Assembly (NCBI GenBank): GCA_016214955.1
Contig: JACRMN010000012.1
Span: 859,901-923,900 of the forward strand
Reading direction: 5' to 3'
Source: Deltaproteobacteria bacterium
Lineage (GTDB): Bacteria > Myxococcota > Myxococcia > Myxococcales > Anaeromyxobacteraceae
Length of the DNA: 64,000 bases
In this document: positions 11,932 through 40,151 of the stretch, in pieces
Position numbering within the stretch: position 1 is the stretch's first letter
Layout of the letters: each line of letters opens with the position of its first letter
Translations under genes and position numbers: made by a program
Notes under the pieces: generated by a model
Seen by the model: only the letters and a program-made list of their open reading frames with translations
The model's database searches: none
Told to the model about the DNA's origin: nothing

Positions 11932-11939
<8 letters not shown>
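11163..11939 (+). CDS. parA: ParA-family partition ATPase
   Basis: Deviant Walker A P-loop ATPase that drives DNA segregation with ParB. The motif KGGSGKT is near residue 11, the DxDPQGN switch is VDLDPQGNATCALG, and the Walker B region is DYVICDCAPSLGPV. The protein lacks the N-terminal HTH of type Ia plasmid ParA. The ATG at 11163 is preceded by a weak GAGAGG; a GTG 18 bp earlier is also open. It overlaps parB by 8 bp. It probably stabilises the excised element or its replicating form. Confidence 0.93.
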
Positions 11940-12966
<1,027 letters not shown>

Positions 12967-18096: not shown

Positions 18097-18109
18097 GCCT
18101 CCTCCTACT

Positions 18110-18138
18110 CCAGAATGGGGTATGCCATTCCATTCTGG
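18110..18138. promoter_or_regulatory. Nested inverted repeats upstream of merT (activator site candidate)
   Basis: CCAGAATGG at 18110-18118 is the exact reverse complement of CCATTCTGG at 18130-18138. The inner arms GAATGG and CCATTC (18113-18118, 18125-18130) also pair. It lies between the divergent activator and merT, where an upstream activating site would be. A weak -24/-12-like match, TGGCCCGGTCCTTGG (18217-18231), follows; its -12 element lacks the usual GC. Confidence 0.5.
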
Positions 18139-18278
18139 TATCCGGCAGGCCTTCGCGTCCAGTCCTTCCGATCCGCACCTGCCCGTCGCGACGGGGGAAT
18201 CCGGCGGGCAGGCAGCTGGCCCGGTCCTTGGATGGAGGCGGAGAAGCATCGGCGCGCAGGGCGTCGCGAAAGGGTCTC

Positions 18279-18668
18279 ATGGAGAGCACGGCATCAGGAA
18301 CCGGGGGGTCCCCGAGGAAGCTCGCCGCGGCATCGGTCGGAGCAGCGATCGCGGCGGCATTCGCGTCATCGCTCTGCTGTCTTGGCCCCCTCGTCCTGGC
18401 GGCGCTCGGCCTCGGTGGCGCCGGGCTCCTCGTAGGGATGGAGGCCTACCGGCCGCAGCTCGCGGTTCTCACCATCGTCCTGCTGGGCGTGGGGTTCTAC
18501 CTCACCTATCGGCGGCCCCGCCTGGTGCAGGTTGCGGTGGAGGGCCCCTCGTGCGACTGCCCGGTACCGGCGGCGAGCCGCCTAGGGCGGGTGGCACTGT
18601 GGGTCGCGACGCTGGTGATCGCCGCCTTCCTGGCCTTCCCGTACATCGCTGCGATCGTCTTTGGGTGA
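18279..18668 (+). CDS. merT: MerT-type mercuric ion transporter
   Basis: A 129-residue inner-membrane protein with three hydrophobic helices. The vicinal Cys pair in helix one ([16 protein letters not shown], near residue 32) and a cytoplasmic Cys pair (CDCPVP, near residue 97) are the hallmarks of MerT. They pass Hg(II) from the periplasm to cytosolic thiols. It starts ahead of merP by 18 bp. No mercuric reductase gene is present in the window, so the fate of the imported ion is unclear. Confidence 0.88.
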
Positions 18669-18686
18669 TCGCGAATGGAGCACGTC

Positions 18687-19019
18687 ATGAAGCGCTTCGG
18701 AACGCTCGGTGCTGCTGTGATGCTCGCGGCCGCCTTCCCCATCGGCCGCGCGGACGCCGAGCAGGGGGCGGTCGCGAACCTCGCCGCGGTGTCGCTTCAC
18801 GTCGAGGGCATGACCTGCCCGTCCTGCAAGGTGGCCGTGCGGGTCGCGCTCTCCAGGCTCGACGGCGTGAAGGACATGCAGATCGACCTGGCCAACAAGA
18901 GCGCCTCCGTAGCGTATGACTCCACCAAGGTGACGCCACAGCAGCTCGCCGATGCCCTGAACCGACTGGGCTACCCGACGAGCCCGCCCGCGAAGAGCGG
19001 TCCCCAGGGGGGGCCATGA
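18687..19019 (+). CDS. merP: MerP-type periplasmic mercury-binding protein
   Basis: A 110-residue protein with a signal peptide (hydrophobic stretch to about residue 24, AxA-like end in RADAEQ) and a single HMA domain. The metal site is GMTCPSC. It scavenges Hg(II) and hands it to MerT. An ATG four codons earlier (18675) is also open, but GGAG before 18687 favours that start. It overlaps the next gene by 4 bp. Confidence 0.88.
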   Translation: MKRFGTLGAAVMLAAAFPIGRADAEQGAVANLAAVSLHVEGMTCPSCKVAVRVALSRLDGVKDMQIDLANKSASVAYDSTKVTPQQLADALNRLGYPTSPPAKSGPQGGP

Positions 19020-21535: not shown

Positions 21536-21946
21536 ATGCGCGTGGAGCCGGGACAGCGTGCCACGGACGGCAGGGCGGCGTCGGGGTGGGCGCGCATCCG
21601 GCTCCTCCCGCGCCCTGTCCTCCTCCTGGCGGTCGCCTTCCTCCTCTCGGCTCTCGGCCAGGCAGTCGCGGGCCTGATCGCGGCCCTGGAACCGCACCCC
21701 GGTGCGAGCGTGCTCGCCCGGCTGGCGCGCAGCCCGGTGCTGGTTGCCGCGTTGTCGCTCGCCGCGGCGCTCGGCGCGCTGCTCCTCGCGGAGCGGCCGC
21801 GAAGCCGCTCACCGGTGGCCTATGCCCGTCAGCTCCGGGCTCGCTGGGCAGAGATCGAGGCCGACTTCGACGGCGCCCTTCGCCGCCGATCGGGAGGGGA
21901 AGGGGAGAATCGCCATGCACCGGAGGCTCATCCGTCGGAACCCTGA
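21536..21946 (+). CDS. Two-helix membrane protein in the transfer operon
   Basis: A 136-residue protein with hydrophobic helices at about residues 27-48 (VLLLAVAFLLSALGQAVAG) and 66-86 (VLVAALSLAAALGALLLA), and a charged cytoplasmic tail. Its 3' end overlaps the VirB2-like gene by 32 bp. No family is recognised. Position suggests a role in assembling the transfer apparatus. Confidence 0.6.
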   Translation: MRVEPGQRATDGRAASGWARIRLLPRPVLLLAVAFLLSALGQAVAGLIAALEPHPGASVLARLARSPVLVAALSLAAALGALLLAERPRSRSPVAYARQLRARWAEIEADFDGALRRRSGGEGENRHAPEAHPSEP

Positions 21947-22229
21947 TCCCGCCGCCCTGGCCGTCGCCGTCGCGCTCACCGCCCTCGTGGCGCTCTCGCC
22001 GCTCCCGGCCCTCGCCCAGAGCAGCATGCCTGGCCAGCAGCTCCTGCTCTTCGCCCGCAACTACATCATCGCTCCCATCGCGCTCTTCGCGATCGTCATC
22101 ACCGCCGTCGCCGCCTTTATCCGGCCGGAGATGATCAGGGCATCCGGGTACATCGCCATCATCGCGGTGGTCCTGTTCTTCCTCCTCGCCAACGCCGATC
22201 GCCTCCTCCAGGTGATGCGCGCCGGCTGA
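21915..22229 (+). CDS. virB2: VirB2/TrbC-type pilin subunit
   Basis: A 104-residue pre-pilin: a long signal sequence ending near PALAQSS, then two hydrophobic helices (YIIAPIALFAIVITAVAAFI and a second, IAIIAVVLFFLLANA) with a short loop. Size and order fit VirB2/TrbC, the major subunit of the conjugative pilus. The start at 21915 follows GGGGAG. Located directly before virB3, as in most VirB operons. Confidence 0.82.
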   Translation: MHRRLIRRNPDPAALAVAVALTALVALSPLPALAQSSMPGQQLLLFARNYIIAPIALFAIVITAVAAFIRPEMIRASGYIAIIAVVLFFLLANADRLLQVMRAG

Positions 22230-22260: not shown

Positions 22261-22593
22261 ATGATCGCGCCCGTCTACCGGAACCTCGACGCCCCGAGCA
22301 CGTTCCTCGGGCTCGCCTTCCCCGTGGAGTGGCTCGCCGTGCTCGCCGCCGGCTGGGCCGGCACCGCGGTAGGCACCCCGAACGTCGGAGGCGGCGCCGC
22401 GCTCGCCATCTACCTCGTGCTTCGCGTCGCCGGGCATGGCCGGCCGGAGGGCCACCTGCAGCACTGGCTCCTCTGGCGGGTGCGCCAGGTCCAGACGGGC
22501 GGGCGCCTCTCGGCGGCGGCGCGGGCGCGGACGCCGCGCTTCCCGTTCGGCCCCTACGAGTGGCGCGACCCGCCCAGGGAGGGCCGGCCGTGA
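22261..22593 (+). CDS. virB3: VirB3/TrbD-type inner-membrane protein
   Basis: A 110-residue protein beginning IAPVYRNLDAPSTFLGL, typical of VirB3/TrbD, with one or two hydrophobic helices (WLAVLAAGWAGTAVG and AALAIYLVLRVAG) and a basic tail. VirB3 works with VirB4 at the base of the channel. The stop overlaps the virB4 start by 1 bp. Confidence 0.8.
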   Translation: MIAPVYRNLDAPSTFLGLAFPVEWLAVLAAGWAGTAVGTPNVGGGAALAIYLVLRVAGHGRPEGHLQHWLLWRVRQVQTGGRLSAAARARTPRFPFGPYEWRDPPREGRP

Positions 22594-25178
22594 TGCGGGA
22601 GTCTGCGCTCGCCGACCTCCTGCCCCTCTGGCGGACGCTGCGGGAGGGCGGCGTCACTGCCATCGTCACGCCAGCGCTGGACTACGTGGGCGGCCTCGAG
22701 CTCGGGAGCCTCGACGTCCGCTACGCCGGCGAGGATCAACTCGCCTCCATCGGCGAGGCGCTCCGGAGCTTCGTGGGGTCCCTCGACGACGACACCACCC
22801 TCCACTTCCTCTTCGCGGTGCGACGGGGCGCCGAGGAGGAGGTGCGGGAGTACGAGGCCTCCTGCGCCGGGGCGGAGAGCCTCGCGCTCCGGGCCTACGT
22901 CTCGGGCAGGGCGGCCTGGCTCCGGGAGCAGCGGCTCCGCCGGACGCGGGTGTTCCTCTTCTTCGGCGGGCAGGGCGGCCTCCGGCTCGGCCTCTCCCGG
23001 GGTCTCCTCGGGGGGCGCCTCCTCTTCGCGAGCCTCGCGAAGCTCACGCAGGTCGAGCACCAGCGGCGGCTCGTGCGGCTCGCCCAGCTTCGCGACCGGA
23101 TCGCGACGCGCCTCGGCGCGGCCGGCATTCCCGCCCGCGAGCTCGACCTCGACGACGTGTGGCGCGTGCACCACGATCTCCTCAACCCCAGCCGGGCGCG
23201 GCACGGGCTGCCGCCCCCTCGCGTGCGGCTCCGCGACACGCTCTGGTCGGAGGAGACGCTGAAGCGGGAGGGGCGCTGGCTCGCCGAGTACACGGAAGCA
23301 GAGCAGCTCGCCCACGAGGACATCGAGGAAAGCCGAGGCTACTTCCGGCAGGGCGACACCTACCGGAGGGTCTGCACCCTCAAGGTGCTGCCCGAGGGCG
23401 GCACCTCCTGCTTCGCGCTGGAGCCGCTCCTCGGCCTCGCGACCGCGGCGGGGCCGCTACCGTACACGCTGGCCGTCACGGTGCACGTCCGGTCCCAGCG
23501 GCCGGCCCGCTGGCTCCTCAACAACCAGCACGCTCTCGTCCAGAGCCTGCGCCAGGTGATGCCGTTGCTGGAGCGCCACACCGTCGAGCAGGAAGAGGCA
23601 GACCGCTCGAAGCGCGAGGCCATCCGCGGCCTCTTCGAGGAGCTGTCCGCGATGAGCAGCAAGATCGCCTCCCTCTCGGCCTCGCTGCTCCTCGAGGCCG
23701 GCTCGCTCGACGAGCTCGACGCCGCCACCGAGGCGGCCCGGAGCGCCTTCTCGGCCGCCGGCAACTCGGAGCTCCTCGCCGAGGAGGTCACGCAGGTCCC
23801 GGCCTTCCTCTCGATGGTCCCCGGCGCCGGCCGATACCAGCTCCGCCGAAAGGGCTGCACCAGCCGGAACGCGGCTGACTTCCTGCCGGTGTACGCGCCC
23901 TGGCGCGGGACGGCCCGGGCCGCGAGCCTCCTCCTGACGCCGACGGGCGATGCCTTCCGCTTCGACCTCTTCGACAAGTCGAGCGGCGTGAACGCCCACC
24001 ACGGCATCGTCGTCGCCGACACAGGGTCCGGGAAGAGCGTGACCCTGGGCGCGCTCACCCTCGACGCCCGCGCCGCCGGCATCGAAGCCATCCTCATCGA
24101 CAACGGGCGCTCGTGGGCGCCGCTCACGGAGCTCCTCGGGGGAGTCCACATCTCGGTGGATCTCTCCACGTCCATCTCACCGTTCCTCAGCTACGCCCAG
24201 CTCGCCGGCCCGGACGGGACCATCTCCAACGAGGAGATCGAGCACGCGGTCCAGTTCATCGAGGTGTGCGTCGCCGACCGGACGCGGCCTCCCTTCGACA
24301 ACGTGGAGCGCGAAGTGGTCTCCCGCGCCGTGCGCTGGCTCTACGAGACGCGGTTCCGGCCACACCCGGAGGAGCCGGTGCTCATCGGGAACGTCTCCGA
24401 GGCGCTCGCCACGCATCCCTGGACCCACCCGAACGATCGCTCCATCGCCGAGGAGCTGGTCCGGCGGCTCGGCATCTACTGCACCGGCCTCTACGCGGAC
24501 CTCCTGAACCGCCCCTCCAAGCTCCGCTTCGACGCCCCGCTCCTCACCTTCGACCTCGCGCGCATCTCGGAGAGCGCCGGGACGCGCGCGGTCGCCATGG
24601 CCACCATCATCCAGGCCATCACCAACCGGGCGATGGCGCGGCGGACCCGCACGCTCGTCGAGGTGGACGAGGGGCACGAGTACCTCGGCCAGGACGACGC
24701 GACCGAGCGGTTCCTCGGCGGCTGCTACCGGAAGATGCGGAAGTACGACACCGCAATGTGGATGATCTCGCAGAACCTAGCCGACTTCCTCGGGTCGCGG
24801 GTGGGGCGCGAGGCCATCGTCGGGAACAGCACCATCCGCATCTTCCTGCGCCACCTCGCCGGGAAGCATCAGGCGGTCATCGGGCACTTCGGCCTCTCGC
24901 CCCGCGCGGCCGCGGCCTTCGCCGGCCTCGAGATGAAGCCCGGCTGGTACAGCGACTTCCTCCTCATGTACGGGGCGCGGACGGCGGTGGTGCGCCTCGC
25001 GCTCCACCCGCTCGCCTACTGGCTCCTCACCACCGACAGGGAAGACCAGGACTTCCTCACCCGCGCCGCGGCGAGGAACCCGCGCCTCGACCGGCTCACG
25101 CTGCTGCGGGAGCTGGCGGCGCGATACCCCCACGGCGTCGTCGGGCGGGCTCCCGCGACCGGCGCCACGGCGGCGTGA
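22593..25178 (+). CDS. virB4: VirB4/TrbE-type secretion ATPase
   Basis: Energises pilus assembly and substrate transfer at the inner membrane. The 861-residue length is usual. Walker A is GIVVADTGSGKSVTLG (about residue 472) and the Walker B region LVEVDEGHEYLG (about 686). Further ATPase motifs include WMISQNLADFLGS. The N-terminal third is the VirB4-specific domain. It overlaps virB3 by 1 bp. Confidence 0.93.
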   Translation: MRESALADLLPLWRTLREGGVTAIVTPALDYVGGLELGSLDVRYAGEDQLASIGEALRSFVGSLDDDTTLHFLFAVRRGAEEEVREYEASCAGAESLALRAYVSGRAAWLREQRLRRTRVFLFFGGQGGLRLGLSRGLLGGRLLFASLAKLTQVEHQRRLVRLAQLRDRIATRLGAAGIPARELDLDDVWRVHHDLLNPSRARHGLPPPRVRLRDTLWSEETLKREGRWLAEYTEAEQLAHEDIEESRGYFRQGDTYRRVCTLKVLPEGGTSCFALEPLLGLATAAGPLPYTLAVTVHVRSQRPARWLLNNQHALVQSLRQVMPLLERHTVEQEEADRSKREAIRGLFEELSAMSSKIASLSASLLLEAGSLDELDAATEAARSAFSAAGNSELLAEEVTQVPAFLSMVPGAGRYQLRRKGCTSRNAADFLPVYAPWRGTARAASLLLTPTGDAFRFDLFDKSSGVNAHHGIVVADTGSGKSVTLGALTLDARAAGIEAILIDNGRSWAPLTELLGGVHISVDLSTSISPFLSYAQLAGPDGTISNEEIEHAVQFIEVCVADRTRPPFDNVEREVVSRAVRWLYETRFRPHPEEPVLIGNVSEALATHPWTHPNDRSIAEELVRRLGIYCTGLYADLLNRPSKLRFDAPLLTFDLARISESAGTRAVAMATIIQAITNRAMARRTRTLVEVDEGHEYLGQDDATERFLGGCYRKMRKYDTAMWMISQNLADFLGSRVGREAIVGNSTIRIFLRHLAGKHQAVIGHFGLSPRAAAAFAGLEMKPGWYSDFLLMYGARTAVVRLALHPLAYWLLTTDREDQDFLTRAAARNPRLDRLTLLRELAARYPHGVVGRAPATGATAA

Positions 25179-25189
25179 AGGAGACGGCG

Positions 25190-26116
25190 ATGCGTTGGCC
25201 AAGGGTGCAGACGGTTGTGGGCGTGGTCCTCTCGGCGGCGGTGACCCTCTACGGGGCGAAGGCGGCCGCGTTCCTGGACATCGGCGGCAACGCGCTGCTC
25301 GCCGACCTCCTCGCGAACGCGACGAAGCAGCTCGCGGTGGCGACCCAGAGCCTCGCGCTACTGCGCCGGAGCTACGCCGAGGCGCGCAAGGTCGCGGACT
25401 ACGCCGAGGAGGCCGCGGAAGCCGCCCGCTCCTTCCAGCGGGTTGCGAGCACGCGGCTCGGCGATCGCTTCCTCGCCGACCTCGATGCCGCCGGGCCGGA
25501 CCTCGCTCGCTACCGGCGCGACGCCCTCGGCGCCGCTGGCATGTCGGGGAGCGACTGGGCGAGCGGAACGGGAACGCTGCGGGGCCTCTCGACCTACTGC
25601 CTCGGCGGCGCAGGCCAAGGGCGCACGGGCTGCGTGAAGCTCGGGAACGAGCTCGCCGCGGAGAAGGTGCTGGCGGCGCTCGGAAGCACGTTCGGTCGCC
25701 CGGGGACGCTCGGAGCGCTCGAGGCGGGGGCGGTGGACGCGGAGGTGGCCGCGGCCATCCAGGGAGACGCCGCTCAGGCCCGGCTCGCCTCGCTGCAGAA
25801 GGCGCGGGTCCGCGAGCTTCTACGGCGGTGCAACAGCGCGAGCCCTGTCGCGACCGCGCGCCAGGCGAAGCGGGTCGCAGAGGAGTGCCGCGCCGCCGCC
25901 GAGCAGGCGCAGCTCCTCCACCTCGAGGAGGGGCAGGAGACGAACGCCAAGCTCTCCCAGCTCGCGCGCCTCCAGGCGGTGGGGGTCGAGCAGAAGAATG
26001 GCGACCTGAAGCGCGAGCTCACCGAGCAGGCGGCGCGGAGGGCGGGGCTCACCGCCGGCCTCGACGACCTCGCGCGGCAGCGCGTCTCCATCAAGAGCGG
26101 CGGGCTGGAATTCTAG
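25190..26116 (+). CDS. virB5: VirB5/TrbJ-like protein
   Basis: A 308-residue secreted protein: a signal peptide to about residue 25 (AKAAAFLD), then LADLLANATKQLAVATQSL, a long helical body with coiled-coil character, and two Cys pairs. This matches TrbJ/VirB5 proteins, which sit at the pilus tip. It lies between virB4 and virB6, the usual order. Family call by pattern and position. Confidence 0.75.
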   Translation: MRWPRVQTVVGVVLSAAVTLYGAKAAAFLDIGGNALLADLLANATKQLAVATQSLALLRRSYAEARKVADYAEEAAEAARSFQRVASTRLGDRFLADLDAAGPDLARYRRDALGAAGMSGSDWASGTGTLRGLSTYCLGGAGQGRTGCVKLGNELAAEKVLAALGSTFGRPGTLGALEAGAVDAEVAAAIQGDAAQARLASLQKARVRELLRRCNSASPVATARQAKRVAEECRAAAEQAQLLHLEEGQETNAKLSQLARLQAVGVEQKNGDLKRELTEQAARRAGLTAGLDDLARQRVSIKSGGLEF

Positions 26117-27312: not shown

Positions 27313-28059
27313 ATGGAAGGGAAGACCGTCATCCGGACCGATCGAAGGGGCAGCCGGGCGCCGCCGGGCTCGCCGCCGGCGATCTGGGCGGCGTTCGCGG
27401 CCCAGGGCCGGTGGAAGAGCTGGACCATCGCCGGGCTCCTCGGGCTCGTCTCGCTCCAGTCCCTCGCGATCGCTCGGCTCGTGTCCCAACCGCCGGAGGT
27501 GGTGCTCGTGAGCGCCGCGGGAGACGCGACACCGGTCGGCCGCTCGGTGGCGACCGACGCGCTCCTCAAGTTCCTGGCCGACCGGACCCGCCCGCCGGAC
27601 GTCGCTGTGGTCCGCTTCACCCGCGACTTCCTCCACCTTGCGCTCGGCGTCAACTCCAGCACGGTCGATGCCGCCTGGCCGGCCGCGCTCGCCATGATGG
27701 CACCGGAGCTCCGCGCCCGCCTCGAGCGGGAGGCGGCCGAGAAGCACCTCGTCGAGGCGTGGCGGCTGGCCCAGCGGAAGACCGAGCTCACCTTCGAGGA
27801 GATCGTTCTGGAGGAACGCCCGCCCGGCCTGGTCGCCATCCGGGCCCGACTCACCCGGCGCACCGGGCCGCTCGTGGAGGGGGCGGCGGGGAGTAGTACC
27901 GATCGGGTGCAGGTGGACCTGGTCGCCCGGACCACGGCGCCGACCATCGAGCGTCCGGACGGCCTGGAAGTGGCCGAGTGGCGCCTCACGCCCCTCCCGG
28001 TTACGGACACCCCGCCCACACCGAGGGCGAAGGCCGAAGGAGGCGCCCATGCGCCCTGA
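27313..28059 (+). CDS. virB8: VirB8/TrbF-like protein
   Basis: A 248-residue bitopic protein: a cytoplasmic N-terminus of about 35 residues, one membrane helix (WTIAGLLGLVSLQSLAIARL), and a periplasmic domain with the alternating helix and beta pattern of VirB8/TrbF. VirB8 links the inner-membrane and core complexes. Similarity is weak apart from layout and position. Its end overlaps the DUF2381 gene by 11 bp. Confidence 0.7.
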   Translation: MEGKTVIRTDRRGSRAPPGSPPAIWAAFAAQGRWKSWTIAGLLGLVSLQSLAIARLVSQPPEVVLVSAAGDATPVGRSVATDALLKFLADRTRPPDVAVVRFTRDFLHLALGVNSSTVDAAWPAALAMMAPELRARLEREAAEKHLVEAWRLAQRKTELTFEEIVLEERPPGLVAIRARLTRRTGPLVEGAAGSSTDRVQVDLVARTTAPTIERPDGLEVAEWRLTPLPVTDTPPTPRAKAEGGAHAP

Positions 28060-28972
28060 TCGAGTCCGAAGCCTCGCGGCGGTGCTCGTACTGGCCGCGA
28101 CGGCGGAGGCCGCCGGAGCGGCCGAGCCGAAGAGCCCGCCCCGGCGGGAGCTCCGCCGCCGGACGCTCGTCGTCGACGACCAGAGCATCGGCTCGCTCGC
28201 GGACCTTCACGTCGCCGGGGGCTCCGCCACCATCCTCAGCTTCGAGGTGCCGGTCGAGCCGAAAGGCGCGCTCATCATGGGCACGCCGGAGCTCTTCCAC
28301 CCGCCGACGCAGTCCGACCGGACGGTCATCCTCGTCCCGAAGGTGGACCTCGTGCGGCCCGTCCCGCTCAGCATCGCGCTCGCCGACGGAACGGCGCTGA
28401 GCTTCAGGATGCTGACGGCACCGCTGGACGCGGACGTCCAGGTGGACGTGATGCTGAAGCTCAAGAGCCGCGCGCCGCCCGAATCTGCCGAGGCCCTGCG
28501 CACCACCATCGCACAGCTCCGGAGCGAGCTCGACGAGTGCCGAGGGTCCTCGGTGACCGCGGGAGCGGCGAGGCTGGCGGCGCTCCTACTTGCCCAGAGC
28601 CTCGACGAGCCACTGGCGTTCGAGCGCCACTCGATGCGCGGCGGCGACAGGCAGCGTCGGCTCATCGTCGAGGCGCGCTGGGTCTACAGGCTCGTCGGCC
28701 TCACCTACCTCGTCTTCAACGTGGCCAACCGCGACCCCGACCGGTCGTGGGTGTTCGACCGGGCCGAGGTGAAGCTCACCGGCGGCGCCGAGCCGGCGGA
28801 CCTCCCGGTCCTCGCCTCCGCCGCGAGCGCGGACGTCCTCGCGCCGGGCCAGGAGAGCAAGGTGATCGTCGCTTTCAAGACGCCGGCGCGATCCACCTCC
28901 CACCGGTACGCCGTCGCGTTCGTCGAGCGGGACGGGGACCGGAGGGTCGTTCTCGAGGGGCTGTCGCCATGA
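28049..28972 (+). CDS. DUF2381-family protein in the VirB9 position
   Basis: A 307-residue exported protein: signal peptide to about residue 25, then a beta-rich region (TILSFEVPVEPKGALIMG and VDLVRPVPLSIALADGTALS), a helical middle, and a second beta domain (LTYLVFNVANRDPDRSWVF). I recognise DUF2381/TIGR02268, a family expanded in Myxococcus. Here it occupies the slot where VirB9/TrbG would be, and the N-terminal strand pattern resembles VirB9. No other VirB9 candidate exists in the operon. It overlaps the kinase-VirB10 gene by 4 bp. Confidence 0.75.
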   Translation: MRPDRVRSLAAVLVLAATAEAAGAAEPKSPPRRELRRRTLVVDDQSIGSLADLHVAGGSATILSFEVPVEPKGALIMGTPELFHPPTQSDRTVILVPKVDLVRPVPLSIALADGTALSFRMLTAPLDADVQVDVMLKLKSRAPPESAEALRTTIAQLRSELDECRGSSVTAGAARLAALLLAQSLDEPLAFERHSMRGGDRQRRLIVEARWVYRLVGLTYLVFNVANRDPDRSWVFDRAEVKLTGGAEPADLPVLASAASADVLAPGQESKVIVAFKTPARSTSHRYAVAFVERDGDRRVVLEGLSP

Positions 28973-31296
28973 CCGCGCCGGGGATCAAGCCCAACTACCT
29001 GATACCGGGGACGGTCGTGGGTGCCTACCGCGTGGAGGAGCAGATCGGCGGGGGCGGCTTCGGCTTCGTCTACCGGGTGATGCGCGACGGCAAGACGTAC
29101 GCGCTCAAGATCGGCCAGGCGCGCCTCTCGGAGCTCGGCGCCGAGGAGCGGGTCGAGACGCTGGAGCGGCTCGAGCGCGAGGTGGCGGCGCTGATGAGCC
29201 TGCGCCACCCGAACATCGTCCGCGTTCACTCCTACGAGCGATGGCCCGACCTGGAGGGCGGGTTCCCGTACCTCGTCATGGACTACGTGGAGGGGAGGCC
29301 GCTGCAGGAGTGGCGAGAGCGCGCCCGGCCCTCGCTCGCCCGCGTCGCCGCGGTCTTCGAGAGGATCGCCGACGCGCTACAGCACATGCACGCGCTCGGC
29401 ATCATCCACCGCGACCTGAAGAGCGAGAACCTCATCGTGCGCCAGGTCGATGGCGTCCCCTTCATCGTCGACTTCGGCATCGCCCGCCCGGTCCTCGCCC
29501 GGAACGTAACCCAGGCCTCGGCCGTGGGCACGCTCACCCACCTCGCGCCGGAGTACGCGACGTTCCTGGACTCGGCCGAGGGGAGGCGGGGGGCGCCCTT
29601 CGACTGGCAGCCGGCGACCGACCTCTATGCCCTCGGCTACGTGCTCTACGAGGCGCTCGCTTGCGAGCCGCCCGTGCCGCGCTTTCCGGAGCGGACCGCG
29701 CGGGCGGAGTCGGAGCTGCTGAACGCCGTGAAGAGCGTGGTCCCGAGGCGGCCGAAGGAGATCGAGCCGCGCATCCCGGAGGCGCTCGACGAGCTCGTCA
29801 TGCAGCTCATCGAGAAGGACCCGCGGAAGCGACCCCAGTCGGCCGAAGAGGTCGGAAGGCGGCTCCGCGACGCGCGCGAGGCGGGGGAGGCACTGGAGGC
29901 GGCGGCCTGGGCCCGGCCGCTCGATGTGCCCGGAGCAGGTTCGGAGCCAGCCGCCGGCGAAGACGCGCGACCCGAGCCCGCCGTGGGTGGCGAGGAGGAG
30001 CTGGCGCCGCTCGAAGCCGGGGACGAACCGAAGGCCGCTGCCGCGGGGAAGGACGACAAGGCGGCCGCGCCGGCAACCGGCGCGTGGCCGCGCAAGGAGC
30101 AGCGTCCTCCTGCGCCAGCACCGCGCCCTTCGCCAGCCGTCTCGGTGCCGACGGAGGGGGGATCCCCCGCGTACGTCGGGGGCCCCGAGGAGGCCGCCAG
30201 GGCGGAAGAGCGGAGGCCCGTGGAGCACTCGCAGGTGAGCCAGATCCTGAGGCGCGCCGCAGCCGAGTTCCCGACTGCGGCCCCGGGGCCCCGGCGCTGG
30301 AAGGTTGCTGGTGCGGCCGCGGCGGGTGTGCTGGTGCTCGTCAGCGTCGCCCTCGCCGCAGTTGCGATGCGGGACGCGTCGAGACAGCCAGCGGCCAGGA
30401 CCCTGCTCGCGGGGACGGAGTCGCCCGGGAGCCAGGGCCCTCCCGCGCTCGCGGATCCACCTGCGGCGGCGCCCTCGCCCGCGCTGACCCTGCCGGCTGC
30501 TCCCTCGGGGCCGGCGCCCGGCGCGGACATGGATCGGTCCGCCCTCCCGTCCACCGCGGCCAGGCGGGCGCGACCGAGCGGAGATGCCCGCGCCAGAGAC
30601 GAAGAACTAATGCGGGAGCCCGGGCGCCCCGCGGACCCGCCGGATGGCCGGCTTGCGGAGACGCCGCCGGCGGAGGTGGGTGAGCCGAGCGGCCTCCTGC
30701 GATCGAAGCCGCTGGGTGCCGAGCCGCCCGGCCTGCTCCGGTCGGTGACCCTGGACCGCGGGGAGGCGCGGAAGCCGGCGAGCCGCGGCGTGGTCTTCGG
30801 TTCGCACATACAGGCGCGGCTGCTCACCAACCTCGACACCCGGACCATCGGCAACGGCCCTGTCGAGGCCCTGCTCCACGTCCCCTTCATCGTCCGCGGG
30901 AAGGTACTCCTGCCGAGCCGCACCATGGTCTACGGCACGGCGGCCGAGTCCGGCGGGCGGTTCACGATCCGGTTCACGCGGATGCGGCTTCCGGACGACA
31001 CGGACCTCACCTTCGAGGGCATCGCACTGGCGCGCGATGACGGCAAGCCCGGACTCGCCGCCTCGGGGCGCATCGGCCAGGAGCCGAGGCGGGGGGAGGG
31101 GCTCGGCACCAAGGTGGCGAGGGGCACCGGGAACCTCCTCCTCGACACCGTGGCCGGGGGGCTGGGGCAGGACATCGCTCGCGGCGCCGGCCAGGCCGCG
31201 CTCAACCACGAGGAGGCGCCGCCCGTGAGCAGCGAGTGGGCGCTCCTCCTCGACGCGGGCGTCGTCTTCGACGTCTTCGTCGAGAGAGCGTTCTGA
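28969..31296 (+). CDS. Ser/Thr protein kinase fused to a VirB10/TrbI-like periplasmic domain
   Basis: A 775-residue single protein. About residues 15-310 form a Hanks-type kinase with all key motifs: GGGGFGFVY loop, the VAIK-type Lys in YALKIG, HRDLKSEN, DFGIARP and the activation segment VGTLTHLAPE. A Pro/Ala/acidic linker follows, then one membrane helix at about 443-465 (VAGAAAAGVLVLVSVALAAV). After a Pro-rich stretch, residues 608-775 match the VirB10/TrbI core: GSHIQARLLTNLDTRTIGNG, VLLPSRTMVYGTA, DTDLTFEGIAL and a final beta strand. This is the only VirB10 candidate in the operon. Confidence 0.85.
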   Translation: MTAPGIKPNYLIPGTVVGAYRVEEQIGGGGFGFVYRVMRDGKTYALKIGQARLSELGAEERVETLERLEREVAALMSLRHPNIVRVHSYERWPDLEGGFPYLVMDYVEGRPLQEWRERARPSLARVAAVFERIADALQHMHALGIIHRDLKSENLIVRQVDGVPFIVDFGIARPVLARNVTQASAVGTLTHLAPEYATFLDSAEGRRGAPFDWQPATDLYALGYVLYEALACEPPVPRFPERTARAESELLNAVKSVVPRRPKEIEPRIPEALDELVMQLIEKDPRKRPQSAEEVGRRLRDAREAGEALEAAAWARPLDVPGAGSEPAAGEDARPEPAVGGEEELAPLEAGDEPKAAAAGKDDKAAAPATGAWPRKEQRPPAPAPRPSPAVSVPTEGGSPAYVGGPEEAARAEERRPVEHSQVSQILRRAAAEFPTAAPGPRRWKVAGAAAAGVLVLVSVALAAVAMRDASRQPAARTLLAGTESPGSQGPPALADPPAAAPSPALTLPAAPSGPAPGADMDRSALPSTAARRARPSGDARARDEELMREPGRPADPPDGRLAETPPAEVGEPSGLLRSKPLGAEPPGLLRSVTLDRGEARKPASRGVVFGSHIQARLLTNLDTRTIGNGPVEALLHVPFIVRGKVLLPSRTMVYGTAAESGGRFTIRFTRMRLPDDTDLTFEGIALARDDGKPGLAASGRIGQEPRRGEGLGTKVARGTGNLLLDTVAGGLGQDIARGAGQAALNHEEAPPVSSEWALLLDAGVVFDVFVERAF

Positions 31297-31303
31297 GGCT
31301 CGC

Positions 31304-31957
31304 ATGCGTCCCACGGGCCTTGCCGCTGCGCTCGCGATCGCAACCGCCGCAGTGCCAGGCGTGGCCAGGGCGGACCAGGGTGCGCTGACCCTCGAGCTCG
31401 GGCCGGCTCTCACATGGTGGCCGGGCATGGGGCCCGCGGTCGGCAGCGGGGGAGGTGTCAACGGAAGCTCCGGCGGCGGCATGATCGGCGTCCGCTACGG
31501 GCTCCGCCAGGGCCTCGACCTGACCGCGGCCGGCTTCTACGAGGCACCCGCCCGCTTCAGCAACCCCGGGACGGCCATCGACACCGGCGGTGCGCCGGCC
31601 TCCGGGACGTTCACGGCCGAGACCAGCAGGTGGGGCGTTCTCCTTGGTGCCCGGTGGATCCACGGCTTGGCGCTGCGATGGTTCGTGGGCGGCGAGGTGG
31701 GCTGGTCGCGCCAGACCTTCACCGGGCTCGACCTAGTCAACGTCTCCGACCCGACGAACCCGCACACCTTCGGCCTCGGGCTGGCGGACCGGGGCAAGAG
31801 CGCGCTCCTGCTCTCGCCGCTCGCCGGCGTCGAGTGGCAGTTCGCGGGCCGGTGGAGCATCGCGTTCACGCCGAGGGTGCAGGTGCTGGTGGGTGGCGCG
31901 GGAAAGGTGGGAGTCGTGTTGCCGGTGAGTGTGGGGTACAGTTGGTACGGCCTGTAG
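31304..31957 (+). CDS. Outer-membrane beta-barrel protein
   Basis: A 217-residue protein with a signal peptide (to about residue 23, VARADQ) and many amphipathic strands ending in an aromatic C-terminal strand (VGYSWYGL). The pattern, with GARWIHGLALRWFVGGEVGW, is that of small outer-membrane barrels. It follows the kinase-VirB10 gene by 7 bp, so it may be part of the outer-membrane end of this transfer channel. Its stop abuts the stop of the convergent GHKL gene. Confidence 0.75.
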   Translation: MRPTGLAAALAIATAAVPGVARADQGALTLELGPALTWWPGMGPAVGSGGGVNGSSGGGMIGVRYGLRQGLDLTAAGFYEAPARFSNPGTAIDTGGAPASGTFTAETSRWGVLLGARWIHGLALRWFVGGEVGWSRQTFTGLDLVNVSDPTNPHTFGLGLADRGKSALLLSPLAGVEWQFAGRWSIAFTPRVQVLVGGAGKVGVVLPVSVGYSWYGL

Positions 31958-33979
31958 TCACCCTTGGCCCTTCGCCCCCCTTGGCGTTGAAGCCTGCTCA
32001 AGTACCTCAGGGAAGTTCTTTTGGAGATACTCCGAAACACTCAGCTCGCGCGACTTCTGATCCAGATGGTCACGGACCAGGCGCATTTCTGAACGAGCAC
32101 GGTCGATAATCTCCCCCCACGAGAGAACCCACACGGTTGCGTTCTCGTACTCGCTCACGAGCCCAGGTTCCTTGTTCTTCTGTCTACGCTGAAGGTCTAT
32201 CTCGGGCTTGATGTCAGAAGACACCAAGAAGACATCCCAGGCTGTCATGGCCTTGTCGAACTGTGGTGATGCCATCACCGTTTGCGCGTACCGCGCCGCC
32301 TGCTGCAATTCCTTCCACCCAAGCGGAACCGACGGTGCCTTGAGCTCCACGAGGAGGTGCCGATTCGACGGGACGGTCGGATACTCTCGCTTCGCCGCGA
32401 GAAACAGATCCGGGATGTCACCCAGCCCAGTCGCGGTCTTCAATTCGGCTTCCGGGATGTCCGGTAGTCCCGCCTCTTCCCGGTGTCGCCGAATCACTGT
32501 CCGGAAGTTCTTGTCGCTGGTGGCGAGATGATACGCGGGTCCAAAGATCCAACAGTTGGGCTCCAGGATCTTGTGGAGTTGGCTCCGCTCTTTGAGCGAC
32601 CCTGCTGCATCCCCGTACACGAGGGAGTGCAGGATATCCAGGAACTCCAGCCTGGCCGTTACTTCGGACGAGAGTCGGATCAGTGACTGAAGGGTGGTTC
32701 GCTCAAGGACTCGGCGGAACTTCTCCATGTCCTCATCGGAGAGCTTTGCGACCTCATGTAAGATGTCGAGCAGATCCTCGTTGTCGAGTGACCGGTTAAG
32801 CAGGCTGAAGATCACTGCCTGCTGCTTCATAGTCATGCCCTCGACATTCGCATGCTCATTCATGCGTTCAAGCACGACGTCGAAGATTGCCTTCTTCGCC
32901 TCCACAACCGCGTTGGCGGAAGGCACGCGAAACGGGTAGAACGCTTGCTCGCGCGCCCTTTCCAGGAATGTGGACTTCCTCCCTTCGCGAACTCGCTCCG
33001 CAAAGTGTGCGACCTCTGCCAAAGCAGCGTCCTTGAGCTGCGCAAAGCCCGTGTCCAACTCAACGACGCCCTCGCGATTCGCTGAGACAATAGAGTCGAG
33101 GTAAGTCGACTCGACGATGCCAAGGTAGTTGGACGAGGCGACATCATCGGCAAGGCAACGATGGACCGTCCGGCCCTTGCCTGTGAAGAGAACTCGTCCG
33201 GCAACGCGGCTTTCGTCGAGCGGTCGGTGCAAGAGAAGATGGTGCAGGCGCACAGGGACATCGACCCGCGAGATCCCTTGAAGCTCTTGGAGTTCGCGCG
33301 ACTCGACAATTGAGGCCACGTCCAGAGGCTCGCCATGTACCGCTATCACGTGGCGAGGATTCCCAAGCAGGTACGAGCAGAACTGAGACAACAGGTCTGA
33401 CCGCAACCGCGCGACGAAAGCTGCCTCGAACTCCTGGTCGAGGGCGTTGAAGATCTTGATCGTGGTGCCAGTCGGTGTCGCAGGTGCAACGCTGCGCACT
33501 TCAACTCTGGGAGAGCTTCGATCATCGGACCGCAGCGTGAAGGTGCTCTGGACGCGAGTCCCATGAGCGCCCTCGGCCACAGTAGTCCATTCACTTATCG
33601 TCCCCAGCCTATGAACCGCGAAGCGGCCGACCCCAAATCGGCCGAGGCGTGCGCTCGCGCCGGCCGCGTTTGGCGACACTCCAATCACCGCGAATCGTTG
33701 CTTAAGGTCCTCTCTAGACATGCCGCGCCCGTTGTCGGACACCTCGATTCCCGCGAGCCCGCCAAGCGGGTTCGCTGAGGTTTCGATCTCCACACGCGTC
33801 GCGCCAGCATCCAGAGCGTTCGCGATCAGTTCACCGACCGCGGTCGATGCCGCGGCATACTTGGCGCGGCCGAGGTGCTCCGCGACGAGGCGTGGCTCGT
33901 AGACCCAGTTCAGGTCATACGAGCTCACAGGCGGGTTCCCGCGGTTCCTGGGGGTCAAGGTGCGCTGGCGGCGCGACAT
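31958..33979 (-). CDS. GHKL ATPase with C-terminal Shedu-like nuclease domain
   Basis: The 673-residue protein begins with a Bergerat-fold ATPase: ELIANALDAGAT (E50, N54), VSDNGRGM (D82, G84, G86) and GRFGVGRF. A helical middle follows. About residues 465-580 contain WIFGPAYHL, then PDLFLA and LLVELKAPSVPLG with a downstream Gln/Tyr pair, as in DUF4263/Shedu PD-(D/E)xK nucleases. The arrangement suggests ATP-gated nuclease action, probably in phage defence. It is opposite to the transfer genes and lies between the operon end and a decayed virD4 start, consistent with late insertion. Confidence 0.75.
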   Translation of the reverse strand: MSRRQRTLTPRNRGNPPVSSYDLNWVYEPRLVAEHLGRAKYAAASTAVGELIANALDAGATRVEIETSANPLGGLAGIEVSDNGRGMSREDLKQRFAVIGVSPNAAGASARLGRFGVGRFAVHRLGTISEWTTVAEGAHGTRVQSTFTLRSDDRSSPRVEVRSVAPATPTGTTIKIFNALDQEFEAAFVARLRSDLLSQFCSYLLGNPRHVIAVHGEPLDVASIVESRELQELQGISRVDVPVRLHHLLLHRPLDESRVAGRVLFTGKGRTVHRCLADDVASSNYLGIVESTYLDSIVSANREGVVELDTGFAQLKDAALAEVAHFAERVREGRKSTFLERAREQAFYPFRVPSANAVVEAKKAIFDVVLERMNEHANVEGMTMKQQAVIFSLLNRSLDNEDLLDILHEVAKLSDEDMEKFRRVLERTTLQSLIRLSSEVTARLEFLDILHSLVYGDAAGSLKERSQLHKILEPNCWIFGPAYHLATSDKNFRTVIRRHREEAGLPDIPEAELKTATGLGDIPDLFLAAKREYPTVPSNRHLLVELKAPSVPLGWKELQQAARYAQTVMASPQFDKAMTAWDVFLVSSDIKPEIDLQRRQKNKEPGLVSEYENATVWVLSWGEIIDRARSEMRLVRDHLDQKSRELSVSEYLQKNFPEVLEQASTPRGAKGQG

Positions 33980-35540: not shown

Positions 35541-37388
35541 GTGGCATCCGATGCTCGTAGCCCCTCCTTCCCGATCCTGAGCCGCCTGGCGGCAGGCTCC
35601 GCGGGCATCCTTCTTTCCCTCGAGCTCCTCTACCGCTGGCAGACGCTGCTCGGCCGCGAGCCGCTCCCACTGCCGGGCTACCTCCGGGAGCAGGCCTACG
35701 CGGCGCTCTCCCGCTATTTGCCGGCCCGCGCCTGGGCTTCCACCCACCCCGGCCTGGCGCTCGCCCTCGGGCTACTCATCCTGGGCCTCGCGCTCGTCGC
35801 CTTCCGCTACTGGCTCATCTTCTGGCGGAATCAGGTCGGCGCCCGGCTGTCCGGCACTTACTTCAAACAGGACGACGGCCGGTTCCCGGTCCGGCCGGTG
35901 AACCTCCTCCGGGAGCTCGCGCGCCGGCCGCAGGGGCTCACCCTCGTGGGCCTCACGCCGCAGCGGGGCCTGCTCGGCTGGCGCTGGAAGCCGGTCTACC
36001 TGGACGAGCGGCAGCGAACCACGCACCGCCACGTTCTCGGCAAGACCGGCTCCGGCAAGACGCTCTCCGTCCTCTGGCCGCAGGTCCTGCAGGACGTGCT
36101 CGACGGCAAGGGGTGCGTCGTCGTCTCGGGAAAGGGGAGCGACGAGGAGATCGGCATCGTCAAGGCCATCGCCCAGATCGCGAGACGGGAGCAGGACCTC
36201 CGGGTGTTCGCCCTGCCGGCCTGGAACCAGTCGGCCATCCCGAGCCACACCTACAACATGGTGTGGGTCGATCCGCGGACGCCCGACGGCGCCGGAGGCG
36301 ACCCGACCGCGGTGGCCGAGCGGGTCTTCTCGGTGCTGCCCATCGGCGACCACAGCTACTACAACACGCAGGCCCAGCTCATGTTCACGAACCTCTGCCG
36401 CCTGCTGCACGGCATAGTGGACGAGGAGGGGCGCGGCCTGCCGTTCACGATGCGGGACGTGGCCCTCTGCCTCAAGGCCATCGGCAACCGCAACGAGGCC
36501 TGGGCGCGCGCGCTCGAGCACTGCCTCACGGCGTCGCTCGACCAGGAGGCCGCTCGCGAGATCGTCTCGCAGGTCGACCGGCTCGGCCACGAGATCCACA
36601 AGGTGCTCTCGGGCCTCGTGGGCGCGGTGGACAAGTTCCAGGCGCCGCTCGTCAACGCCTACGCGCCCGACATCGTGATGCGCGAGGTGCTGGAGCGGAA
36701 CCTCATTCTCTACGTCCAGCTCCCCTCGAACCTCTTCAAGATCCAGGCGCCCTCGCTCGGCAAGGTCTTCCTCATGGACATCCAGCAAGAGGGGAGCCTG
36801 CGCCAGGTGTTCCGGTCGGTGCGGAACCAGAGGCCCTTCAGCGTGGTGGTGGACGAGTTCGGGCGCTTTGCCGACCTCACCTTCGTGGATTCCATCAACC
36901 AGCTCCGCGACGCCAACCTCCAGTTCACCGTCGCCCACCAGTCGCTCGCCGACCTGGAGCTCGTGAGCCGCGAGTTCGCCAACGCCGTCTGGGACAACAC
37001 CCGCATCAAGGACGTGCTCTCCCAGGACAACCCGGCGCTCTGCGAGATGCTGGCGAAGAGCATCGGCACCCGGCAGGAGATCGTGAGGACCGTCCGAGCC
37101 GAGCCCGGTCCGCTCTTCACCTCGCTCGCCACGCGCGAGTCCTCGACGCGGTCGGTGGAATCCTACCGGCTCCATCCGAACCGCATCCGGAACCTGGCGC
37201 GCTGCGGGCAGGGCTACCTCTACACCGACTCGACGCTCCACCCCATCTGCTACGGGCAGCTCCCGCCGATGAAGGCGAGCTACCCGCTGCCGAGCCGCGG
37301 GTCCTCCGGCCGCGGACTGCGCCTCTACGAGACCTTCGTGGAGCGCTCGCCGCTGAAGGCCTTCGCGCACGTGAGGAGGCTGTCATGA
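35541..37388 (+). CDS. virD4: VirD4/TraG-type coupling protein
   Basis: Hexameric ATPase that brings transfer DNA to the type IV channel. The 615-residue protein has two N-terminal membrane helices (about residues 15-35 and 75-100), Walker A GKTGSGKT (about 168), Walker B SVVVDEFGRF (about 435), and TraG motifs such as ILYVQLPSNLFKIQ. It starts with GTG. The stop overlaps the next gene by 4 bp. It heads a second transfer operon with a primase and a replication-relaxation protein. Confidence 0.92.
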   Translation: MASDARSPSFPILSRLAAGSAGILLSLELLYRWQTLLGREPLPLPGYLREQAYAALSRYLPARAWASTHPGLALALGLLILGLALVAFRYWLIFWRNQVGARLSGTYFKQDDGRFPVRPVNLLRELARRPQGLTLVGLTPQRGLLGWRWKPVYLDERQRTTHRHVLGKTGSGKTLSVLWPQVLQDVLDGKGCVVVSGKGSDEEIGIVKAIAQIARREQDLRVFALPAWNQSAIPSHTYNMVWVDPRTPDGAGGDPTAVAERVFSVLPIGDHSYYNTQAQLMFTNLCRLLHGIVDEEGRGLPFTMRDVALCLKAIGNRNEAWARALEHCLTASLDQEAAREIVSQVDRLGHEIHKVLSGLVGAVDKFQAPLVNAYAPDIVMREVLERNLILYVQLPSNLFKIQAPSLGKVFLMDIQQEGSLRQVFRSVRNQRPFSVVVDEFGRFADLTFVDSINQLRDANLQFTVAHQSLADLELVSREFANAVWDNTRIKDVLSQDNPALCEMLAKSIGTRQEIVRTVRAEPGPLFTSLATRESSTRSVESYRLHPNRIRNLARCGQGYLYTDSTLHPICYGQLPPMKASYPLPSRGSSGRGLRLYETFVERSPLKAFAHVRRLS

Positions 37389-37645: not shown

Positions 37646-39033
37646 TCCCCGAGGCGGTCATCGAGGAGATCCGCTCGCGGGTGGATTCCGTCCAGGTCAT
37701 CGGGCGGCGCGTCGAGCTCCGGAAGAGCGGGAGCTCCTTCTCGGCCTCCTGCCCCTTCCACCCTGACCGCACGCCCAGCTTCCACGTCTTCCCCGACTCG
37801 AAGCGCTTCAAGTGCTTCGGGTGCGGCGCGCGCGGCGACGTGTTCGAGTTCCTGCGCCGCTTCGAGGGAAAGGACTTCAGGACGGCGGTGCGCGACCTGG
37901 CCGCTGAGGTCGGGGTGGTCATCCCCGGCACCGGGCAGGAGGGGGCGGGGCCGGCAGCCACTTCCGCAGCCGACCCCGGCCGCGCGGTGCTCGAGCGCGC
38001 CTGCGAGGCGGCCGCGGCACACTGGACGGAGCGGCTTTGGAGCGACGCGGGCGCGGCGGCGCGGCGTTACCTCGCCGCGCGCGGCATCCAGGAGTCGACG
38101 GCCCGCCAGTTCCGGCTCGGCTTGGCCCCGCGGGAGTGGCACGACCTCGAGGAGGCGCTCGTCGCCCGGGGCTTCTCGCGCGAAGACCTCCTGCGGGCTG
38201 GCCTCCTCCGCAAGAGCGACAAGGGCGAGCCTCCTGCGCACGACCGCTTCCGGGGCCGGCTCATATTCCCCCTCGCCGCCGGCGATCGCAGCGTGGTCGG
38301 CTTCGCGGGGCGCGCGGTGGCGGACAGGGAGGGGAGCGGCGAGCCGAAGTACCTGAACAGCCCCGAGACCCCCATCTTCAGGAAGGGGCACCTCCTCTTC
38401 GGGCTGCCCGAGGCGCAGGCGGGCATCCGCTCGGCGCGGCGTGCCGTGCTGGTCGAGGGCTACTTCGACGCCGTCGCGGTTCATCAGGCGGGTGCGCGAG
38501 ACGTGGTCGCCTGCGGCGGGACGGCGCTCACGGAGCACCAGATCGGTCTCCTGCAGCGTGCCGGCTGCACGGACCTGGTCCTGCTCTTCGACACCGACCC
38601 GCCGGGCCTCGACGCACCGGCCGTGGCGGCGCCCGCGCTCCTCCGGTCCGGCCTCACGGTTCGCGTGGCGCGCCTACCCGGTCCCGCCTCGACGGACCCC
38701 GCGGCCCACCTGCACGCGGCAGGCCCCGGGAGCCTGCCCGGCGTGCTCGACGCGGCCATGCCGCTCACCGAGTGGCTCATCGAGCGTGCGATCGCGGGGA
38801 GGACGCGGCCAACCGGGATCCGCGGCCTCTCCGTGGAGCAGAAGCTCCTGGTGGTGCGGGACCTGCGCCCCTTCGTGGCGGCGGCGCGCCCGGGGCTCCC
38901 GCGCGCCCTCTTCGAGCAGCGCCTCGCGCGGCGGCTCGAGCTCTACATCGTGGCCCTGCGGGCCGAGCTCGGTCGCGGCGACGGGCGCGAGGTGCAGGCA
39001 ACCCGGGCAGGAGGCGCGCCATGGCACGCGTGA
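37642..39033 (+). CDS. DnaG-type DNA primase
   Basis: A 463-residue primase. The N-terminal CHC2 zinc site is CPFHPDRTPSFHVFP with CFGCGARGDVFEF. The Toprim domain has VLVEGYFDAVAVHQ (about residue 268) and LLFDTDPPGL (about 314), in which the acidic pair D-T-D is kept but the usual AG is PG. The C-terminal helicase-binding domain is short. It is probably used to start complementary-strand synthesis after transfer. It overlaps the replication-relaxation gene by 13 bp. Confidence 0.9.
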   Translation: MIPEAVIEEIRSRVDSVQVIGRRVELRKSGSSFSASCPFHPDRTPSFHVFPDSKRFKCFGCGARGDVFEFLRRFEGKDFRTAVRDLAAEVGVVIPGTGQEGAGPAATSAADPGRAVLERACEAAAAHWTERLWSDAGAAARRYLAARGIQESTARQFRLGLAPREWHDLEEALVARGFSREDLLRAGLLRKSDKGEPPAHDRFRGRLIFPLAAGDRSVVGFAGRAVADREGSGEPKYLNSPETPIFRKGHLLFGLPEAQAGIRSARRAVLVEGYFDAVAVHQAGARDVVACGGTALTEHQIGLLQRAGCTDLVLLFDTDPPGLDAPAVAAPALLRSGLTVRVARLPGPASTDPAAHLHAAGPGSLPGVLDAAMPLTEWLIERAIAGRTRPTGIRGLSVEQKLLVVRDLRPFVAAARPGLPRALFEQRLARRLELYIVALRAELGRGDGREVQATRAGGAPWHA

Positions 39034-40151
39034 AGGGGGCGGTCCTCACGGCGAGGGACCGGGTCCTCCTCTCGTACCTCGCGATCGCCCGCTACGCCTC
39101 GACCCTGCAGCTCCACCGGCTCCTCGCCGACGGCCACGACATCTCGCTCGTATACCGGCGGCTCCGGCGGCTCAGCGCCGACATGAACCGGCCCGGCGAG
39201 TCGCCGCCGGTGAGGCGGCTCGCGTACCGCCGCGCGGAGGGCACCGCGGTCGCCGTCTGGGCGCTCACGCAGTACGGCCGGGCGGTGGCTGAGGACGCGG
39301 TGCCGTACCTCCGGCCGCCCGGGAAGGCCGACGTGAGCGCTCGGTTCCTCCTCCACACCCTCATGCTGAACGACGTGCTGGTGGAGCTGGTGCTCGCGCT
39401 GCGCCAGTCGCCGGAGGCGCCGCTCGCGGAGCTGCCGTTCCGATGGCTCTGCGAGAACGACGAGCAGCTCGGGTTCAGCGTCTTCCGCCAGGACCTCGGC
39501 CAGACGCGCGCGTCGATCCTGAAGCCGGACGCGATCCTGGAGCTGCCCGGGCCGCGGCGGCGCCTCTTCGTCGAGGCCGAGACCGGCGCCCACAGCATCG
39601 CGACCGCGGACCCCCTGAGCCACGGGGCGGTCCTGAAGAAGCTCGAGCGCTACGCCCGCTTCATCACCGGGCTGGTGCCCGGCTCGGGCCCCACCACCTT
39701 CTACGAGGCGGCCTTCTCCGACGGCCTCGCCCCGGAGCTCGTCCTCCTCGTCCACTCGGAGGGGAGGAAGGCCAAGGTCGAGGCGGCCATCCGGGAGTGG
39801 AGCCGCGGGCGCGGGGTCGAGGAGCTCGCCGTCCGCGTCCTCACGTTCCGGGGTGCGGCCGCGGAGATCGTCTCGCTGCTGGGCGGCCAGGCCGCCCTGA
39901 GCCGGGGACCTCGCCTCGTAACTATCGATGATCACAGGGCTCGCAGGCTCCGCGAGGGCTTCAACGCAGTCGCCGAGGCGCTGAACGCCGCGCGGAGGGC
40001 CGTCGCCGAGCACAACGGCCGCTGCGGCGACCGCCTGGTCCTGCCGCCGGCGCCGATGGCAGAGCTCAAGGATCTCCGCGATCTCATCAAGCACGACCTG
40101 CTTGGGGAGCCCCGGTCGCCGAGGGGAGAAACCGGCGTGGTCGCTCGCTAA
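39021..40151 (+). CDS. Replication-relaxation family protein
   Basis: A 376-residue protein that I assign to the Replic_Relax family: an N-terminal winged-helix region (TARDRVLLSYLAIARYASTL, then LVYRRLRRLSAD) and a nuclease-like core with LKPDAILELPG and LFVEAETGAHSI, a D...ExE/K-type site. Members occur on conjugative elements and are thought to act at the transfer or replication origin. It could serve as the element's nicking protein, since no HUH-type relaxase is found. Confidence 0.7.
   Translation: MARVKGAVLTARDRVLLSYLAIARYASTLQLHRLLADGHDISLVYRRLRRLSADMNRPGESPPVRRLAYRRAEGTAVAVWALTQYGRAVAEDAVPYLRPPGKADVSARFLLHTLMLNDVLVELVLALRQSPEAPLAELPFRWLCENDEQLGFSVFRQDLGQTRASILKPDAILELPGPRRRLFVEAETGAHSIATADPLSHGAVLKKLERYARFITGLVPGSGPTTFYEAAFSDGLAPELVLLVHSEGRKAKVEAAIREWSRGRGVEELAVRVLTFRGAAAEIVSLLGGQAALSRGPRLVTIDDHRARRLREGFNAVAEALNAARRAVAEHNGRCGDRLVLPPAPMAELKDLRDLIKHDLLGEPRSPRGETGVVAR

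Follow-up and report, generated by a model that had tools for sequence, protein, structure and literature searches.

A Hanks-type kinase fused to a VirB10-like channel subunit in a putatively conjugative element of a myxobacterium

In type IV secretion systems (T4SSs), VirB10 spans both membranes and touches VirB4 and VirD4 with its cytoplasmic part (PMC12624023, PMC12857230). In Agrobacterium it is an ATP energy sensor, according to work cited in PMC12857230 and PMC12624023. How recipient contact reaches the core is listed as an open question in a 2025 review (PMC12624023; see also PMC12857230), and a 2025 T4SS review mentions neither kinases nor myxobacteria. Here, we describe a gene that joins a Ser/Thr kinase to a VirB10-like domain in an integrative and conjugative element (ICE) of a Deltaproteobacteria bacterium (Anaeromyxobacteraceae). 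The stretch analyzed, referred to as the window, comprises 64,000 nt (assembly GCA_016214955.1, contig JACRMN010000012.1, positions 859,901-923,900 of the forward strand). As judged from sequence, the protein is almost certainly the VirB10 subunit of the ICE-borne conjugative T4SS, with a kinase on its cytoplasmic end. The gene and its parts are as follows.

28969-31296, forward strand: kinase-VirB10 fusion, whole gene; single open frame from ATG 28969 to TGA 31296, 775 amino acids
28996-29868, forward strand: Hanks-type Ser/Thr kinase domain (PF00069), residues ~10-300, with K47, D149, N154 and D168; catalytic residues kept in relatives
30313-30369, forward strand: single inner-membrane helix predicted by hydropathy, residues ~449-467; position common to all relatives
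30766-31293, forward strand: VirB10/TrbI-like periplasmic core, residues ~600-775, by TrbI, hhalign and PDB profile

The kinase is complete and appears active by its motifs. Its PF00069 match spans residues 20-292 with 131.5 bits (E 4.8e-38); the HRD, Asn and DFG residues are all present. The membrane helix carries basic residues (GPRRWK) on its N-terminal side, and proline makes up 17% of the stretch after it. One helix with a basic N-terminal side and a Pro-rich segment after it is VirB10 topology; the single helix and the Pro-rich segment were seen by hydropathy and composition in 18 family proteins.

Four comparisons agree in assigning the C-terminal domain to VirB10. TrbI (PF03743) matched residues 610-699 with 30.7 bits in the full-length protein, under the Pfam cut-off of 35, and with 36.5 bits, above that cut-off, when the domain was scanned alone. 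The fusion gene scored 33-36 bits in a scan of its own genome. In a genome scan, 6 relatives exceeded the cut-off by themselves. TrbI was matched by 13/16 family members, and all 16 matched Transposon_TraM, a conjugative-transposon family that we take to be the VirB10 equivalent. Comparison of the family with six canonical Myxococcota TrbI proteins by hhalign gave a probability of 95.4%. When the family profile was run against all PDB sequences, the sole natural protein matched was Xanthomonas VirB10 (6gyb, E 0.013). The pattern LPxGTxxxG...RFxxxFxRxxLPdG...DxxxG and the terminal strand of the family align with TrbI. The original prediction had proposed a complete Hanks kinase, a linker, one helix and a VirB10/TrbI-like end in one frame, and both the 775-residue frame and the domain matches bear it out, the C-terminal ~175 residues being TrbI/VirB10-like.

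The fusion is not confined to the window. Searching with the C-terminal domain, we found matches in 14 of 195 Myxococcota genomes, and the kinase lies in the same frame in 17/17 of the full-frame homologues first recovered from Myxococcota. It forms a conserved family, more general than originally supposed. All 31 of 31 kinases keep the HRD, Asn and DFG residues unchanged. The ATP-site Lys column deviates in six proteins; we ascribe this to a shifted alignment, since those printed show VAIK/VAVK-like motifs next to the column. Both the kinase and the VirB10 domain are under purifying selection as estimated from coding sequence; the ratio of nonsynonymous to synonymous substitution rates (dN/dS) between loci L036 and L037 is 0.078 for the kinase, 0.31 for the linker and 0.075 for VirB10. 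An artifact, whether misassembly, a frameshift or chance likeness of a Pro/Ala-rich tail to TrbI, would fit the full-length TrbI score under the Pfam cut-off. We consider its chance practically negligible given the same architecture in all 17 first-found homologues, the low dN/dS and the profile matches over the cut-off, and rejected it as refuted by the conserved family. The shared frame and the selection on both domains argue that the fusion is neither chance nor an assembly error. Outside the 31 kinases, a contig-end copy (L045:5704-7761) has lost the DFG Asp (NAIG), whereas L046, a close relative from that genome, is intact; the L045 copy is possibly a kinase-dead paralogue or a pseudogene.

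The genomic context is that of a transfer operon. The kinase, the VirB10-like domain and a DUF2381 protein occur together with a T4SS VirB4 in 16 loci, the window and two plasmids included (two of the loci, L037 and L038, are near-identical). The order VirB2-3-4-x-6-8-DUF2381-kinase:VirB10 is kept in family loci at identities down to 36-60%. In the window, the transfer genes around the fusion are as follows.

21915-22229, forward strand: VirB2/TrbC-like pilin; PF04956 weak, E 0.0025; kept in the operon
22261-22593, forward strand: VirB3-like, judged by its place in the family operon and its conservation there
22593-25178, forward strand: VirB4/TraC ATPase; TraC-F-type E 1e-64
25175-26116, forward strand: operon gene in the VirB5 position; no family match; BLAST recognizes only the closest relative, L035
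26119-27273, forward strand: VirB6/TrbL-like membrane protein; L036 homologue matches TrbL, E 4e-5
27313-28059, forward strand: VirB8/TraE-like; TraE weak; L156 homologue matches VirB8, E 9e-5
28049-28972, forward strand: DUF2381 protein in the VirB9 position with an N-terminal signal-peptide-like segment; PF09544 E 9e-54
31304-31957, forward strand: conserved operon gene; homologues in 7 family operons
35541-37388, forward strand: VirD4/TraD coupling protein; TraG-D_C E 2.5e-10, T4SS-DNA_transf E 6e-9
39021-40151, forward strand: replication-relaxation (relaxase-like) protein; PF13814 E 5e-15
40345-42999, forward strand: large conserved operon protein; directly 3' of the kinase gene in many relatives

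A primase gene also lies downstream of the fusion in the transfer region. The ATG of the fusion gene overlaps the TGA of the preceding DUF2381 gene (ATGA), as is typical of an operon. The complete plasmid NZ_CP123279.1 has the same operon order, with the fusion annotated merely as 'protein kinase', and plasmid pYRE and four loci of genome G013 hold more divergent fusion operons with their own VirB4. Across 14 loci, distances of the kinase, VirB10 and VirB4 co-vary (Spearman rho of 0.75-0.79; p 0.0005 in a Mantel test), indicating that the kinase has been inherited together with the machine. Viral contigs contained no relatives of the fusion, and a phage collection gave matches to the kinase part only. 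In other phyla, a single-protein scan of genome contigs gave kinases that lack the VirB10 domain. Because such a scan has little power for the C-terminal domain, it does not prove that the fusion is confined to Myxococcota. The Myxococcus plasmids NZ_CP123279.1 and NZ_CP102771.1 (L053, L054), which carry this T4SS type, are 'non-mobilizable' per MOB-suite in PLSDB, and MOB-suite typing seems blind to it.

The operon belongs to a complete-looking, putatively conjugative ICE of ~54.2 kb (window 6701-60909), recognized by an integrase at a tRNA, att repeats, a coupling protein, VirB4 and a relaxase-like protein. The tRNA-Gly(GCC) gene lies at 6650-6724, and the element ends are as follows.

6725-7963, reverse strand: ICE tyrosine integrase adjoining tRNA-Gly; PF00589 E 3e-20
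6701-6726, no strand: att repeat at the tRNA-Gly 3' end; exact 26-bp direct repeat with 60884-60909
60884-60909, no strand: second att repeat, ICE right end; exact copy of the 6701-6726 repeat

DUF2381 is probably the VirB9-like partner of the fusion protein, going by gene position and remote similarity. The gene directly precedes VirB10 in the family operons. The window protein belongs to TIGR02268, the 'Myxococcus xanthus paralogous family' (78 bits vs a cut-off of 76). It matches DUF2381 only and does not pass the cut-off of CagX (PF03524). Among 21 relatives there were weak matches to DUF4138 (4), CagX (1), DotH/IcmK (1) and TraK_C (1), all of them outer-membrane-core families of other T4SSs; the best DUF4138 match (E 4e-5) was below cut-off and the single CagX match had E 0.013. 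DUF4138 is presumably a TraN/VirB9-type family. A PDB profile search with DUF2381 gave no match. The matches that Foldseek gave for the DUF2381 model were essentially generic beta-sandwiches, from which we drew nothing.

DUF2381 proteins also occur apart from transfer operons. The family is present in 78/195 Myxococcota genomes, often with at least 10 scored copies each; scoring covered a limited number of candidates per genome, and actual copy numbers may exceed this. Sampled chromosomal copies (L105-L124 and L165-L169, on Myxococcaceae chromosomes) are followed by a gene for either a kinase with a membrane helix and a short C-terminal domain or a small kinase-free lipoprotein-like protein. 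No T4SS genes were seen beside the chromosomal DUF2381-kinase pairs in the stretches read. The C-terminal domain of these partners is shortened and matches that of the window family with an hhalign probability of 96.1% (P 3e-9), which supports the view that the chromosomal pairs descend from the T4SS pair or share an ancestor with it; compared directly with canonical TrbI, it gave 11.5% and no match. For the DUF2381-kinase pairs on chromosomes, the best interpretation is a second use of this module, as trans-envelope receptor kinases, and the chromosomal DUF2381 and partner genes together are possibly a large receptor family descended from the T4SS core.

These copies raise the alternative that in the window, too, DUF2381 and the fusion protein are only a receptor, a VirB9/VirB10-derived sensor kinase that travels with the T4SS operon and stays outside the channel. 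Their shortened VirB10-like domains fit this, as do regions in which a canonical TrbI VirB10 is accompanied by a kinase ending in a VirB10-like domain: L170/L171 (G031), L072 (G037), L161 (G042) and probably L074 (G120), with DUF2381 adjoining that kinase in L161 and L170. In the window genome, however, neither PF03743 nor the more sensitive family profile found a second TrbI-type VirB10 in the element or the whole genome, and the whole genome has no CagX-type VirB9. The fusion was thus rightly predicted to be the only VirB10 candidate of its operon, and the lack of another VirB10 makes a receptor-only role less likely in this element. The gene also occupies the exact VirB9-VirB10 slot of a complete-looking operon, and two homologous operons hold a kinase-free version in that slot. 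We judge the receptor-only explanation improbable.

For the window, we regard a trans-envelope relay as fairly probable: signals from the outer-membrane core would pass through VirB10 to kinases at VirB4/VirD4. VirB10 would array the kinases as a ring at the channel base, beside VirB4 and VirD4. The outer-membrane core, formed by DUF2381 as VirB9 and the VirB10 core, would take up a signal, for instance contact with a recipient or the state of the channel, and a conformational change would cross the envelope through VirB10. The kinases, thereby clustered or released, might phosphorylate one another and also T4SS or element proteins (VirB4, VirD4, the relaxosome, regulators). The machine could thereby leave assembly and begin DNA transfer, or mating could be reported to the cell. 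That the chromosomal pairs have no T4SS genes nearby favors outside-to-inside signaling. More tentatively, the fusion protein and DUF2381 may be a mating-signal receptor in which the outer-membrane core detects the recipient and fires a kinase ring at the channel base, the pair having then multiplied on myxobacterial chromosomes into a large family of trans-envelope receptor kinases, a new class of receptor descended from a secretion channel.

Inside-out control is a serious rival to the relay, and we give this rival a limited chance. Here the kinase would read the cytoplasmic state (ATP, cell cycle or an ICE regulator) and gate the channel by phosphorylating VirB4, VirD4 or the VirB10 tail, with the periplasmic half as an anchor only. 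Such gating would suit both the ATP sensing reported for Agrobacterium VirB10 in work cited in PMC12857230 and PMC12624023, along with its contacts to VirB4 and VirD4, and the co-evolution of the kinase, VirB10 and VirB4. Chromosomal DUF2381-kinase pairs lacking T4SS genes in the stretches read suit a receptor better than a channel gate.

Some observations weigh against the relay and the VirB10 assignment beneath it. The direction of signaling is one that we infer and that sequence cannot show. The similarity to VirB10 is close to the detection limit for single sequences, and the two-helix outer-membrane antenna, which in VirB10 lies between the last strands, is unrecognizable by sequence; an Ala/Gly-rich, helix-prone segment sits at the expected place. 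Single-sequence AlphaFold2 models of the C-terminal domain and DUF2381 were unusable (mean predicted local distance difference test scores of 36 and 42). Moreover, DUF2381 is followed in L156 (G016) and L155 (G193) by a kinase-free gene with a helix and a VirB10-like core, so the kinase is not mechanically essential. These two genes possibly represent an ancestral or a kinase-lost state.

In the kinase tree (FastTree, midpoint-rooted), the window kinase groups with the other T4SS fusions and adjoins chromosomal DUF2381-linked Myxococcaceae kinases (support 0.995). The kinases of L054, L159, L161 and L170 and, separately, those of L047 and L163 were placed among other myxobacterial kinases. This scattered placement indicates that at least two kinase lineages joined VirB10-like domains. 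Together with the kinase-free versions, it marks the kinase as an added module, attached more than once or exchanged.

A kinase acting outside transfer control, for example in defense or in host manipulation favoring the ICE, is very improbable. The kinase domains of PADLOC defense families match the fusion, and the same ICE bears a MADS-like defense system with its own kinase protein. The PADLOC matches are only to the generic kinase domain and were rejected as a sign of a defense role, and the covalent link to VirB10 and the linkage to T4SS genes across the family point to a role tied to transfer. The MADS-like cluster (43912-58671) within the ICE comprises the following.

43912-45948: mad2-like methylase
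47310-51413: NERD and two kinase domains, mad6/PglW-like
51410-53050: mad7
53047-58671: large frame whose C-terminal part is mad8; as a whole it matches no Pfam family

The ICE also carries ParA/ParB (11163-12966) and RadC (14634-15284). At 17048-19019 are a sigma-54 activator fragment and MerT-like and heavy-metal-associated (HMA) proteins, possibly mercury-related cargo. In the middle of the transfer region, the opposite strand encodes a HATPase_c_3 (GHKL ATPase) protein (31958-33979, reverse strand) with weak likeness to restriction/defense models.

Herein, a VirB10 with an enzymatic cytoplasmic domain, conserved in myxobacteria, is apparently an undescribed arrangement. Our literature search, which covered open-licence papers on VirB10 or TrbI with kinases, on DUF2381 and on conjugation in myxobacteria, turned up no account of a kinase-VirB10 protein or of DUF2381; within that scope, the expectation that no VirB10 of this kind had been described held. 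A kinase on VirB10 could wire a "partner cell attached" signal directly into the cell. VirB10 is the presumed signal-relay subunit, and a built-in kinase would make the relay measurable, as phosphorylation, and breakable, by one catalytic-residue mutant. The arrangement also offers a first hypothesis for the function of DUF2381 and of the receptor kinases adjoining DUF2381 genes.

Compared with known systems, the protein resembles VirB10/TrbI (PF03743) and Bacteroides TraM (PF12508) in its C-terminal core, one helix with a cytoplasmic N-terminus, Pro-rich periplasmic stretch and adjoining putative VirB9 gene. Unlike VirB10/TrbI, it has a Hanks kinase of ~300 residues and a linker of ~150 residues in place of the short cytoplasmic tail. 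It shares with transmembrane Hanks kinases of the PknB/PASTA type (NF033483) a cytoplasmic kinase with intact catalytic motifs, a linker, one helix and an extracytoplasmic domain, and scores 169.9 bits against NF033483, whose cut-off is 450. In contrast to those kinases, its extracytoplasmic part is a T4SS channel-core domain from a T4SS operon and not a PASTA or other ligand-binding domain. DUF2381/TIGR02268, a family without assigned function, stands here in the VirB9 slot, with relatives that weakly match DUF4138 and CagX.

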